A stretch of 64,000 nucleotides of DNA from Pseudodesulfovibrio portus (lineage in GTDB: Bacteria; Desulfobacterota; Desulfovibrionia; Desulfovibrionales; Desulfovibrionaceae). The stretch is from NCBI RefSeq assembly GCF_026000375.1, contig NZ_AP026708.1, forward strand, positions 1,676,501-1,740,500, in the 5' to 3' direction. Made by a program: the position numbers and the translations under genes. The notes under the pieces were generated by a model. That model saw nothing but the letters and a program-made list of their open reading frames with translations. It was not told the origin of the DNA and ran no database searches. Of the stretch, positions 50,025-55,451 are shown piece after piece (position 1 is the first letter of the stretch; each line of letters begins with the position of its first letter).

Positions 50025-50061
50025 CTTGCCCCGCAACCGTCAACCGCCTAGGTTTTATGCC

Positions 50062-52671
50062 ATGCAGCCGGACAACACCCTGCCCCCCTCCGCCGCCAGA
50101 CTGAAAAAAGCCAAGGCCGATCTCTTCTCGCGCGCCAGGACGGGCAATGTCGGCGGCTTTGCCTGGGAATACGCCCACCTGGTGGATCATTACTTCCAGG
50201 ACCGCATCCGCGAGGCCGGGCCGCAAAAATTCGCCTACGCCCTTGTGGCCGTGGGCGGCTATGGCCGCGGCAAGCTCTGCCCCGGCTCGGACATCGACAT
50301 CCTGGTCCTGTTCAAGCGGCGCATCCCGGCCACGGCGGACCGGTTCATCAAATCCCTGCTCTTTCCCCTCTGGGACCTCGGCCTGGACCTCGGCCACGGC
50401 GTGCGCATCGTATCCGACTGCGTATCCCTGGCCCGCAAGGACTTCCAGGTGCTGGCCTCGCTCATGGACGCCCGCCCCCTGGCCGGCGACGCATTGGTCT
50501 TCGAGACCTTCCGCACCACCTTTGACGCCAAGGTGCTCAGGAAAAAGGGCGACTCCTTTGCCCGGTCCCTGCGCGAACACAACGAGACGAGGCTTGCGCA
50601 GTACGGCGACGCCTCGGGCATGCTGGAGCCGGAACTCAAGAACGGGCTGGGCGGCCTGCGCGACGGCCAGCAGGTGGCCTGGCTGAGCCGGGTGCTCGAC
50701 GCCTCGGGCCGCAAACCGGTCTTCCTGCCCGAGGAATTGTCCCGGCTGCGCGACGACCAGGCCTTTCTCAACCGCGTCCGCACGGCCCTGCACCTGGCGG
50801 CAAAACGGAAAAACGACCGGCTGCACTTCGATCTGCAACCGCCCACGGCCCGCCTCATGGGTTTCACCCCCAGGAATGATTCCCCGGAGGCGATGGGCCG
50901 GACCGTCGAATTCTTTCTCTCCCGCCTGCACCAGGCCATGACCCGCATCAAGACCATGCGCGAGTCCCTGTTCCAGGAGGGGTTCTGCGAAAAAACCGCC
51001 GCCCCCCTGCCCGAATTGTCCATCCGCAACCTCGCCGCCGGGCCGGAGGGCATCTTCTTCAAGAGCCAGGCCGCTGCCACGCCCGACAACGTGCTCGGCG
51101 CGTTCCTGGAATCCGCACGGTCCGGCCTGCCCCTGACCTGGGGGGCGCGGCGCATCGTCCGCAGCAACCCGGCCCGGTTCGCAGCCGGGCTGGTGGACAA
51201 GCCCGAGACCCTGTCCACCCTGGTTGAGATATTCCAGGCTCCCCACGGCGGCGTGGCCTGCCAGGGGCTGGTCGAAACCAGGCTCCTGCCCGCCATCCTC
51301 CTGGAATTCGGCGACGTGGAGCACCTCATCCAGTTCAACGACTACCATGTCCACCCTGTGGGACGGCACACCCTGGCCACCGTGAACCTGCTTTCGGAGT
51401 TCCTGTCGGGTGCCGACGGATGGGCCGGGGAAATCGGCTCCCACATCGGCTACCGGGACGCCATCATCCTCATCCTGGCCGGATTCTTCCACGACCTGGG
51501 CAAGGGGGAACCCAATCACTCCAAGGCCGGGGCGGACATCGCCCGGGACGTGCTCAACCGGTACGCCAGGGAAACCACCCTGGTGGAAGAGGTGGCCTTC
51601 CTGGTGGAGCACCACCTGCTCATGCCCGAGGCCGCCACCCGGCGCGACCTGTCCGACGAAAGAGTGGCCGCGAACGTGGCCGCCGTGGCCGAGAACCCGG
51701 ACCGGCTGGACATGCTCTACCTGCTGTCCGTGGCCGACTCCATGGCCACCGGCCCCCGCGCCTGGAACTCGTGGACCCGATCCCTGTTCGGGGAACTCTA
51801 TTTCAAGGTCAGAAATCTCCTGGAACACGGCCCGCTCTCCAGGCCGGACGCCGCCCGCCGTCTGGCGTCGGTGCGCGCCGAGGTGCACGAACTCGCCGCC
51901 GACATGGACCCCGAATTCGTTGAGGCCGCGCTGGGAGCCATGCCCATGCGGACCTTCCTGGCCCTGGACGCGCCCACCATCGCCGGACACCTCAAGCTGG
52001 TGGACACCCTGTGGAAGGACGTGGCCGAAGACCGCATGCGCAAGCCTTCCGCCATCGGCGGCAAGGGGGTCAACCTCATCCAGGCCCGGCCCGGCAAGGC
52101 GGCAAATACCTTTGAGCTGACCGTGGCCGCCGTGGACCAGCCCGGCCTGTTCGCCACCATTGCCGGGGCCATCTCGCTCCACGGCCTGGACATCCTGGCC
52201 GCCGATATCTTCACCTGGAGGGACGGCACGGCCGTGGACGTGTTCACGGTCTCGGAACCACCGGAATCCCTGTACGCCGACGAGGTCTGGGCCCGCATCC
52301 GGCGGTCCATCAGCTACGCCCTGGCGGGCAAGCTCGACCTGGCCGCACGGCTCGAGGAACGGCGCAACTCCCCGCTGACCAAGCGCCGGACCGGCCCGAA
52401 GCTCAAGCCCATCGTCACCGTGGACAATACAACCAGCGATTTTCACACCGTCATCGAGGTGGCCGCCACCGACCGCACGGGCTTTCTCTTCGACATGGCC
52501 CGCACCCTGGCCGCCCACCACCTGTCCATTCACCTGGCCAAGATCGCCACCATCAAGGGCCGCGCCGCCGACGTCTTCCATGTCCGTACCCAGGACGGCA
52601 TGCGGTTGACCGACGAGACCCGCATACAGGCACTCAAAATAGATTTGCTGGATGCCGCCACTATGGCATAA
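50062..52671 (+). CDS. glnD: PII uridylyltransferase/uridylyl-removing enzyme
   Basis: This 869-residue enzyme adds UMP to PII when nitrogen is low and removes it when glutamine is high. It has the nucleotidyltransferase motif GGYGRGKLCPGSDIDIL (near residue 65), the HD domain (HTLATVNLL and FFHDLGKGEP), and two C-terminal ACT domains (about 690-770 and 800-869) that sense glutamine. MQPDNTLPP is the start; a TTG 12 codons earlier has no ribosome-binding site. It lies downstream of amtB and the PII gene, so the sensing circuit is complete here. Confidence 0.94.
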   Translation: MQPDNTLPPSAARLKKAKADLFSRARTGNVGGFAWEYAHLVDHYFQDRIREAGPQKFAYALVAVGGYGRGKLCPGSDIDILVLFKRRIPATADRFIKSLLFPLWDLGLDLGHGVRIVSDCVSLARKDFQVLASLMDARPLAGDALVFETFRTTFDAKVLRKKGDSFARSLREHNETRLAQYGDASGMLEPELKNGLGGLRDGQQVAWLSRVLDASGRKPVFLPEELSRLRDDQAFLNRVRTALHLAAKRKNDRLHFDLQPPTARLMGFTPRNDSPEAMGRTVEFFLSRLHQAMTRIKTMRESLFQEGFCEKTAAPLPELSIRNLAAGPEGIFFKSQAAATPDNVLGAFLESARSGLPLTWGARRIVRSNPARFAAGLVDKPETLSTLVEIFQAPHGGVACQGLVETRLLPAILLEFGDVEHLIQFNDYHVHPVGRHTLATVNLLSEFLSGADGWAGEIGSHIGYRDAIILILAGFFHDLGKGEPNHSKAGADIARDVLNRYARETTLVEEVAFLVEHHLLMPEAATRRDLSDERVAANVAAVAENPDRLDMLYLLSVADSMATGPRAWNSWTRSLFGELYFKVRNLLEHGPLSRPDAARRLASVRAEVHELAADMDPEFVEAALGAMPMRTFLALDAPTIAGHLKLVDTLWKDVAEDRMRKPSAIGGKGVNLIQARPGKAANTFELTVAAVDQPGLFATIAGAISLHGLDILAADIFTWRDGTAVDVFTVSEPPESLYADEVWARIRRSISYALAGKLDLAARLEERRNSPLTKRRTGPKLKPIVTVDNTTSDFHTVIEVAATDRTGFLFDMARTLAAHHLSIHLAKIATIKGRAADVFHVRTQDGMRLTDETRIQALKIDLLDAATMA

Positions 52672-52772: not shown

Positions 52773-53399
52773 ATGCCAATAAAAATGACCATTTACTCCG
52801 ACTTCATATGACCTTTCTGCTATGTCGGCGCGGGCATCGTCGACAGCTTCAGGGACGAATTCGACATCCAGGACACATGGGTCCCCCATGAGATCCACCC
52901 GGACACGCCCGCCCAGGGGCGAGACATGACCGACCTGTTCAACCGGTTCGACATCGACAACATCACCGGCGTACTCCGTCAGCGCGGCAGGCCCTACGGC
53001 ATCGAATTCGGAGACATGTCCCGGCTGTCCAACTCGCGCCTGGCCCTGGAGACCGGCGAGTTCGCCCGCGATCACGGCGACTACCACCGGGTCCACATGG
53101 CCCTGTTCAAGGCGTACTTCACCTTCGGCCGGGACATCGGCGACCGGGCGGTCCTCAGGTCCGTGGCCGGGGACTGCGGCCTGGACCCGAACGAACTCAT
53201 GGCGGCGCTGGAAGAAGGACGCTATACCGAACAGGTGCGCCGGGGATCGGACGCCGCCCGCAGGGACAAGGTTACCGCAGTCCCGACCTTTATCATCAGG
53301 GGGTGTCCGGCCATCACCGGAGCGGTCAATGAAACGCTCTTTCGCGAAGCCCTGCAAGGGGCTGCAGCCGCCCTCTCCTCGGCCACGGACAACAAATAA
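52773..53399 (+). CDS. DsbA/FrnE-like thioredoxin-fold protein, predicted selenoprotein
   Basis: Translation from ATG 52773 (preceded by GGTAGGTTGCT) gives MPIKMTIYSDFI, then TGA at 52809-52811, then PFCYVGAG and an open frame to 53399. The FrnE/DsbA family reads SDF-x-CPWCY at this place, so the TGA sits exactly where the first redox Cys belongs: a U-PFC motif (U13, C16). Read through, the protein has 208 residues, the normal family length, and shows EIHPDTPAQGRDM, the helical insert (ALFKAYFTFGRDIGD) and the cis-Pro region VPTFIIRGCPAITG. A hairpin follows the TGA at SECIS distance. Without read-through the active site would be lost. Confidence 0.8.
52809..52853 (+). promoter_or_regulatory. 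Candidate bacterial SECIS hairpin with its UGA codon
   Basis: Right after the TGA, CCT (52812-52814) pairs with AGG (52851-52853), GCT (52819-52821) with AGC (52845-52847) and GTCG (52824-52827) with CGAC (52841-52844); a GCG/CGT (52828-52830 with 52838-52840) step closes the apical loop CGGGCAT. The loop lies 20-26 bases after the UGA, within the 16-37 bases SelB needs, and is G-rich. Confidence 0.6.
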
Positions 53400-53422: not shown

Positions 53423-54424
53423 ATGACCATGACAAAACAACAAGAAATCGTTGTCTTTTTTACCGGCGGAACCATCGGCATGTCCCCGGCAGAAGGCGTG
53501 ACTGGAGTGGCTCCGAACGACAACTTCCACGAGCTGCTCAACCAGTTCAAGCCGCAGGAGGCGAACGTCACCCTGCGACCCGTTCTCTGGTCGGACAAAC
53601 CGAGCCCGCACATGACGCCCGACGACATGTTCCGGCTGGCCCTGGACGTGGAGAAAACCCTGGTCGAGCCGTCCGTGGCCGGAGCCGTGATCCTGCACGG
53701 AACCGACACCCTGGCCGAGACCGCGTACATGTGCGACATGGTCATCGCATCCGACAAGCCGGTCATCCTCACCGGGTCCATGCGCTACTATTCCGAATCC
53801 GGTTACGACGGCATCCGCAACCTGGCCAACACCGTCCGCGCCTGCCTGCTCCCCCTGCCGCCCGGCATCGGGGCGTGCATCCTGATGACCGACCGCATCT
53901 TCGCCGCCCGCGAGGCGGTCAAGGTCAACTCCCTGAACGTGGACGCCTTCGAATCCCGCGAAGCGGGCGTGGTCGGCTACGTGGCAGGCGAGTCCGTGGT
54001 CCTTGCCAGACGCTATTCCACCCCCACCCCGAGGCGTGGGCTCCACCCCGAGGCCATTGAGGAGCGGGTCCCCCTCCTGACTGCATACACGGGCATGGAC
54101 CGATCACTTATCGATCATTGCAGAAGCCTGGGCAGCAAAGGGATTGTCATAGAAGGATTCGGGGCAGGGAATGTTCCTCCCACCATAGCGACCGCTCTTG
54201 AAGAGTGCCTTTCGGACAACATTCCGGTGGTCCTGGCCACCCGCTGCATCGAGGGCGGGGTGTGGCCCATATACGGCTACCCCGGCGGCGGAGCCGACCT
54301 GGAAAGCAAGGGGGTTATCCTGTGCGGTCGCCTGGGCGGCCCAAAGGCCCGCATTCGCCTCATCTGCGCCCTCGGAATGACTTCCGACATGAGGAAAATC
54401 CGGCAGATCTTCAGCGAGGCGTAG
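53423..54424 (+). CDS. L-asparaginase
   Basis: This 333-residue enzyme splits asparagine into aspartate and ammonium. The catalytic loops are TGGTIG (residues 14-19, Thr17) and HGTDTLAETA (92-101, Thr94 and Asp95). No signal peptide is present, so it should act in the cytoplasm, in line with type I enzymes. It lies 23 bases after the selenoprotein gene and belongs to the nitrogen-related cluster. Its 3' end overlaps the convergent HD-GYP fragment by 14 bases. Confidence 0.92.
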   Translation: MTMTKQQEIVVFFTGGTIGMSPAEGVTGVAPNDNFHELLNQFKPQEANVTLRPVLWSDKPSPHMTPDDMFRLALDVEKTLVEPSVAGAVILHGTDTLAETAYMCDMVIASDKPVILTGSMRYYSESGYDGIRNLANTVRACLLPLPPGIGACILMTDRIFAAREAVKVNSLNVDAFESREAGVVGYVAGESVVLARRYSTPTPRRGLHPEAIEERVPLLTAYTGMDRSLIDHCRSLGSKGIVIEGFGAGNVPPTIATALEECLSDNIPVVLATRCIEGGVWPIYGYPGGGADLESKGVILCGRLGGPKARIRLICALGMTSDMRKIRQIFSEA

Positions 54425-54869: not shown

Positions 54870-55451
54870 ATGGCTACGAGCGTGATCGAAATCTGCAACA
54901 ACGCCCTGCTCGACCTGGGCGAAGACGTCATCATGTCCCTTGGCGACGACTCCAAGGCCGCCGGGCTCTGCAACCACCGCTGGCCCGCCGTGCGCGACGC
55001 CGTGCTGCGCGCCCACCCCTGGAACTGCGCCATGTCCCAGGCCGAGCTGGCCGCCGGGACCGCCGCGCCCCTCTGGAAGTGGGCGTACAAATACACCCTG
55101 CCCAGCGATTTCCTGCGCGTCATCCAGATGGTGGGCTGCGACGGCGAGGATATCTCCGACTGGGAAATCCAGGGCAACATCATCCTGTGCGACGAAGACG
55201 CGCCCATCTTCATTTCCTTTGTCCGCTGCGAAACCGATCCCCGCAAATACGACGCCCTCCTCACGGAGACCCTGTCCGCCCGACTGGCAGCCGCCCTGGC
55301 CTATCCACTGACCGGCTCCACCTCCCTGGCGCAGGCATACTGGGAACTCTACCAGAAGAAACTGGCCGAAGCCCGGGGCGTGGACGCCCGCGAAGGCGTG
55401 CCCGAATCCGTCACACCCACCGCCTGGCTCGGGGCCAAGTTGGGGCGGTGA
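54870..55451 (+). CDS. Phage tail adaptor (T7 gp11/tail tubular protein A-like)
   Basis: This 193-residue protein starts MATSVIEICNNALLDLGEDVIMSLGDDSKAAGLCNHRWPAVRDAVL, the typical opening of short-tailed-phage adaptors (tail tubular A) that join the portal to the nozzle. The segments HPWNCAM, PLWKWAYKYTLPSDFLRVIQ and the final YWELYQKKLAEAR helix are intact. GCGAGGTACCGACT precedes the ATG. Normally it stands directly before the nozzle gene; here it is alone, 25 kb from the nozzle at 27431-29524, with a shared upstream element instead. Confidence 0.82.
   Translation: MATSVIEICNNALLDLGEDVIMSLGDDSKAAGLCNHRWPAVRDAVLRAHPWNCAMSQAELAAGTAAPLWKWAYKYTLPSDFLRVIQMVGCDGEDISDWEIQGNIILCDEDAPIFISFVRCETDPRKYDALLTETLSARLAAALAYPLTGSTSLAQAYWELYQKKLAEARGVDAREGVPESVTPTAWLGAKLGR

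Follow-up and report, generated by a model that had tools for sequence, protein, structure and literature searches.

An apparent stop codon in a 64,000-nucleotide stretch of Pseudodesulfovibrio portus DNA (hereafter the window) is almost certainly read as selenocysteine (Sec), which would make the product a selenium version of an FrnE/DsbA-type disulfide-handling enzyme. Comparative analysis leaves us highly confident in the combined proposal that the gene encodes a selenoprotein, that Sec13 is inserted with the help of SelB and a hairpin in the message, and that the resulting FrnE-branch enzyme, 208 residues long, has U-P-F-C as its active site and is most likely a cytosolic reductase or isomerase. 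The original prediction, made by inspection of the window, had already read the UGA as Sec in a U-PFC site. This reading is supported by a codon that is exclusively TGA or Cys in relatives, by the machinery encoded in the genome and by compensatory changes in the hairpin. The elements concerned are the following.

52773..53399 (stop codon included), plus strand: predicted FrnE/DsbA-type selenoprotein gene, 208 amino acids via UGA13, recognized from the reading frame, Pfam PF01323 and homologues.
52809..52811, plus strand: UGA codon 13, predicted selenocysteine and first redox residue of U-P-F-C, from the codon census of 117 homologue-bearing genomes.
52818..52820, plus strand: codon 16, second (resolving) Cys of U-P-F-C, invariant in the 14-row alignment A1.
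52824..52844, plus strand: predicted bacterial Sec insertion sequence (SECIS) hairpin, arms 52824-52831 and 52837-52844, apical loop 52832-52836 (GGGCA), from pairing and covariation.
53283..53285, plus strand: codon 171, Pro of an AVPTF segment, invariant in alignment A1.

A single frame leads from the ATG at 52773 through the TGA at codon 13 (52809-52811) and 195 further sense codons to a TAA at 53397-53399, as first described. The family assignment made at that time also held, with a Pfam match of the recoded product to PF01323 (E 4.7e-27) and homologues in 117 genomes, the window's own included. No NCBIfam model exceeded its cut-off for the protein. The product has a DsbA-like thioredoxin fold, nearest to FrnE, and the fold is supported by a predicted structural model; P171 is presumably the cis-proline of this fold. 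Apart from residues 13 and 16, Cys occurs only at positions 135 and 178.

Were UGA13 a true stop, the real gene would start at an internal ATG (52926) and encode 157 amino acids. This open reading frame (ORF) is what the ORF list, compiled without recoding, gives in this frame, as a Sec-blind annotation pipeline might. It contains no active site, and the shortened protein would be devoid of the first strand and the CxxC motif. Moreover, S9, D10, P14, C16 and G19, which flank codon 13, are invariant in the 14 rows of alignment A1, and the codon itself is only ever TGA, TGC or TGT across 117 genomes. Termination at UGA13 is therefore very improbable.

A protein search at the family level gave a match at E<=1e-20 in 13 of 149 genomes. 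The 117 different genomes, with the window's own counted once, come from a profile search with alignment A1 at E<=1e-30, which found matches in 39 of 348 genomes of the order and 79 of 395 of the phylum. Homologues and FrnE paralogues weaker than E 1e-30 were excluded. Alignment of the matches to the profile gave 59 distinct sequences from the first 60 genomes (70 loci including duplicates) and 57 more. A pattern scan of genome contigs matched 63 stretches, among them one relative. Codon 13 was TGA in 91 genomes, TGC or TGT in 26, and nothing else in any. The original prediction had named TGA or Cys at this place in orthologues as decisive, and this is what was found. It is this restriction of the codon, not the energy of the hairpin, that places the apparent stop beyond chance. 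Among the 90 distinct TGA sequences, own included, the active site reads U-P-W-C in 51, U-P-F-C in 35 and U-P-Y-C in four. The gene therefore combines the features by which selenoproteins are recognized, namely an in-frame UGA, coding sequence conserved on both sides, and Cys at the same place in homologues.

The census also bears on a pseudogene or a sequencing error, in which a TGC or TGT was misread as TGA. The nearest relative found, L031 from a Desulfovibrionaceae metagenome-assembled genome (the same stretch as L032, G327), shares 70% identity and does have TGC at codon 13, which speaks for such an error. However, TGA stands at the same place in 90 other genomes, the frame is otherwise intact, and TGA genes preserve the hairpin far better than Cys genes do. 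Conservation across the phylum sample refutes this explanation, and we regard it as the least probable of all those considered.

In bacteria, SelB charged with Sec-tRNA binds a hairpin in the message, and the UGA is decoded as Sec. A hairpin with a G-containing loop 20-26 bases past the UGA had been pointed out before, and folding of 52806-52862 found it again, as an 8-bp stem with a 7-base loop 20-26 bases after the UGA. With the T of TGA numbered as column 1, the stem joins columns 16-23 to 29-36, and the loop occupies 24-28. In 43 TGA sequences (42 distinct), 89.9% of cells were standard pairs, the covariation score was 0.276 and 29 cells were doubly changed; none of 500 shuffles reached any of these three values. 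When the partner arm was slid by 1-3 columns, pairing fell to 22-50%, the covariation score did not exceed 0.161 and no more than 16 cells were doubly changed. The shuffles are uncorrected for relatedness; the slides correct for it, but a structure derived from the sequences tends to beat its own slid versions. RNAalifold, given no structure, returned six pairs of the same stem, four of them changed on both sides. The clearest compensations separate the U-P-F-C from the U-P-W-C group: GC to AU at 19-33, CG to UA at 21-31, and AU to CG at 23-29. Paired cells numbered 637 of 720 in the 90 distinct TGA sequences versus 105 of 208 in the 26 Cys sequences, and 87 of the 90 TGA genes have G at loop base 25. 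A SECIS-like hairpin with a G-containing loop thus follows soon after the UGA, and three of the five covariation measures are clear. An Rfam scan of the window gave nothing above the gathering scores.

Codon choice over the hairpin was compared between 36 close TGA genes (profile score over 220) and 11 close Cys genes. In the TGA genes, Val23 is GTC in 36 of 36, Gly19 is GGC in 34 of 34, Ile22 is ATT in 27 of 29 and Val18 is GTC in 20 of 21, while elsewhere in these genes (codons 31-180) the same codons account for only 32-37% of those amino acids (binomial P for the four positions 1.8e-9 to 1.5e-18, relatedness ignored). The corresponding fractions in the close Cys genes are 3/4, 8/11, 3/9 and 4/6, small numbers in which residue identity is partly involved. 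The simplest reading of the bias at codons 18, 19, 22 and 23 is a constraint at the RNA level beyond that on the protein.

The genome, a single 3.4 Mb contig that is 99.99% complete, appears equipped to decode UGA as Sec. Its tRNA-Sec scored 83.6 bits against a gathering score of 47 and was called tRNA-SeC with anticodon tca by ARAGORN; selB scored 399.8 bits (cut-off 242.25), selA 613.1 bits (cut-off 267.9) and selD 339 bits (cut-off 125). All of the components whose presence was to be checked after the original prediction (selA, selB, selD and tRNA-Sec) are therefore encoded. Outside the window, selD (contig 2044643-2045572) and two formate dehydrogenase alpha genes over cut-off (contig 2706604-2709618 and 1118412-1121417) contain one in-frame TGA each, so that these three are probably selenoproteins too. 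Across relatives, selA exceeded its cut-off in 89 of the 91 TGA genomes (own; 79/80; 9/10) and in 22 of the 26 Cys genomes, including every one of the seven Cys genomes in the genus of the window (Fisher p 0.02).

Near-cognate insertion of Trp or Cys at UGA13 would likewise allow readthrough, yet it leaves unexplained why tRNA-Sec, selA, selB and selD are all present, why relatives without Sec invariably have Cys (26/26) and why the SECIS hairpin covaries. We consider it very improbable, on a par with a true stop.

Several observations weigh against recoding to Sec. Within the hairpin, the window's own innermost pair, 23-29, is an unpaired C-T, which is a weak point; the outermost pair, 16-36, is formed in only 55 of 90 TGA sequences, and four of the 90 genes (L082, L121, L127 and L142) keep just 3-5 of the seven inner pairs. 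The window's hairpin folds at -15.3 kcal/mol (z -0.65), a value that 44 of 200 shuffles equal or better, and the consensus energy from RNAalifold, -2.37 kcal/mol, is low. Two covariation measures were not clear: five pairs are changed on both sides, a number reached by 24 of 500 shuffles and exceeded by the +3 slide (6), and there are 12 further pair types, reached by 46 of 500 shuffles and exceeded by the +3 slide (14). No selA over cut-off came from the drafts G204 and G539 (~140 and ~240 contigs), both of them TGA genomes, and selA presence separates TGA from Cys genomes weakly (89/91 vs 22/26) because most Cys genomes also carry the gene. Hairpin energy was dropped as evidence by itself since neither value is distinctive, and the case for recoding therefore rests on codon conservation, covariation and the wobble constraint. 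Taken together, the recoded codon, the SECIS element and the machinery are supported by sequence and by comparison.

In the proposed mechanism, SelB carrying Sec-tRNA(Sec) would bind the hairpin, whose G-rich loop lies ~20 bases past UGA13, and the ribosome at UGA13 would insert Sec and not terminate. By analogy with the family, Sec13, as a selenolate, would then attack a disulfide of the substrate or some other oxidised sulfur group, and Cys16 would resolve the mixed selenide-sulfide. A cytosolic location is most likely, as judged from the model: strand 1 begins at residue 3, which by inspection would leave no room for a signal peptide. Reductase or isomerase activity is our best guess, and reaction direction, electron donor and substrate are likewise presumptive parts of the explanation. 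The guess of a cytosolic reductase or isomerase follows from the FrnE of Deinococcus radiodurans (DrFrnE; DR0659, COG2761), which is described, in the part of the account covered, as a cytoplasmic disulfide reductase with insulin reduction and isomerase activity in vitro, and which reduces 5,5'-dithiobis(2-nitrobenzoic acid) with NADPH and E. coli thioredoxin reductase (PMC8945050). The FrnE active-site motif CP(W/F)C near the N terminus, as given in the same source, appears in the window protein as U-P-F-C. The window protein differs from DrFrnE in having Sec for the first Cys and in lacking the C-terminal CXXXXC, which may recharge DrFrnE. This second motif is found in many FrnE proteins but is absent from those of D. 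maricopensis and S. roseofulvus, and so is not strictly defining (PMC8945050, same part). Sec may make such recharging unnecessary in the window protein.

Proteins of this kind have been described before. In the portions of the literature covered, a DsbA-like UxxC selenoprotein of COG2761, the group of DR0659 FrnE (PMC1978522), is listed with nine sequences from the Sargasso Sea (2005; PMC1088965); four DsbA-like selenoproteins are counted elsewhere, with Desulfovibrio desulfuricans among the organisms (PMC1794560), and a DsbA-like TGA gene of D. desulfuricans is entered as Dde_1263 plus upstream sequence (PMC1914089). Further DsbA-like entries are found in PMC2398784, PMC9312934 and PMC13188914. 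The window gene shares with the family, as presented there, the pfam01323 domain, UxxC with Sec first, a SECIS after the UGA and Cys homologues (PMC1088965, PMC1794560, PMC1914089, PMC13188914); the likeness to Dde_1263 is drawn from its published description, not from a sequence alignment. FrnE is not mentioned by name in the main text of PMC1794560, PMC2398784, PMC9312934, PMC13188914 or PMC1088965, nor is DsbA in that of PMC12013277. A literature search for FrnE and selenoprotein, limited to titles, returned none on a bacterial FrnE selenoprotein, and no experimental work on a selenium FrnE was seen in the literature covered. NF041057 (Rcas_1661 family thioredoxin-like (seleno)lipoprotein), likewise a Sec-containing thioredoxin-fold family, is listed for a DsbG-like protein in the covered part of PMC13188914. 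Membership of the window protein was rejected, with 36.9 bits against a cut-off of 190 and only residues 87-194 matched. The conclusion that the window gene is real and uses an ordinary mechanism, and is a new example of a protein type already described, is well supported.

The history of Sec and Cys at this site was followed on a quick protein tree (116 rows) for which residue 13 had been masked. The fewest Sec/Cys changes on the tree were 12, eight of them forced by starred branches, compared with a mean of 23.7 for shuffled labels; these changes do not tell gain from loss because the tree is unrooted and has no outgroup. The window gene is placed as sister to L031, which has Cys (98, starred), and several Cys rows of the window's genus sit among Sec rows. 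A near-whole stem persists in three of the 26 Cys genes: all seven inner pairs in L026, and six of seven in both L031 and L054. Relic hairpins of this sort are as expected of recent conversions. L026 (G129) belongs to genus g7, where its sisters L028 and L050 (G117 and G313) have TGA, pointing to a likely recent Sec/Cys switch. Because Cys rows sit among Sec rows and relic hairpins remain, change from Sec to Cys is favoured over the reverse; it is not settled, as an unrooted tree shows no direction. Seven genomes of the window's genus have Cys despite retaining selA, the one machinery gene searched there. As separate observations, a large related U-P-W-C clade (L080, L083-L087, L110-L112 and most of L116-L163), with 51 Sec and two Cys rows, has its hairpin rebuilt by compensatory changes, and a divergent U-P-F-C gene of the window's genus (L107 / L109, G341; 46% identity) groups with genes of other genera and was perhaps acquired by transfer.

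Gene neighbourhoods of ~12.6 kb were compared around 20 homologues. Thirteen came from the 24 further genomes of the genus that had a match, chosen mostly for long contigs, and seven from other genera of the family. The two neighbours concerned are as follows.

53423..54424, plus strand: asparaginase gene, a downstream partner that close relatives keep (PF00710 7.7e-49, PF17763 1.5e-30).
50026..52671, plus strand: glnD-like gene, upstream, a neighbour in part of the genus (PF08335 2.6e-23).

The stop codon and the asparaginase ATG are 23 bases apart in the window. Of the 13 same-genus neighbourhoods, 12 have an asparaginase homologue (74-81% identity) directly following in the same orientation, the exception being the divergent L107, which suggests a functional or at least operonic link with the selenoprotein gene. 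The gaps from the last sense codon are 17-88 bases, approximate values extrapolated from match ends. No asparaginase lies within 6 kb in the seven neighbourhoods from other genera. A glnD gene was rejected as a fixed neighbour, being within ~6 kb in eight of the 13 and directly upstream on the same strand in six; glnD and PII/ammonium transporter genes are looser neighbours than asparaginase. The glnD-asparaginase setting, unexplained at first, is thereby partly accounted for, as its asparaginase side is conserved and its glnD side less constant. Further downstream, a 193-aa gene (54870-55451, plus strand) matched the PHROG tail protein phrog_394 (6.4e-53) and, more weakly, a tail tubular protein, but nothing in Pfam at 1e-5. 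In 10 of the 13 same-genus neighbourhoods a homologue (78-83% identity) is present within ~6 kb of the selenoprotein gene, on either strand, so this is perhaps a resident phage-tail-like gene.

The close same-strand spacing would also suit a selenium switch, compatible with recoding to Sec, in which translation without selenium stops at codon 13 and polarity lowers asparaginase. However, L097 (G318) and L098 (G319) retain the pairing with Cys at codon 13, and five of the seven other-genus neighbourhoods without asparaginase have TGA. We consider a switch improbable, if less so than the alternatives to Sec weighed above.

The asparaginase pairing and the phylum census, seen here for the window gene, were not met in the covered portions of published accounts of the DsbA-like family. 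The window gene is a clean case of a selenoprotein recognized by reading raw sequence, despite an apparent stop that interrupts its frame. The 90 Sec and 26 Cys distinct relatives form a natural series in which to study the timing and causes of the replacement of Sec by Cys, and the asparaginase pairing is a first functional lead. Tentatively, and with more doubt than belief, we propose that the U-P-F-C FrnE may be an ancestral selenoprotein of the phylum that repeatedly changed from Sec to Cys even where the machinery was kept, leaving relic hairpins, and that in the window's genus its partnership with a cytosolic-type asparaginase may link selenium-dependent redox control to asparagine and ammonium metabolism.
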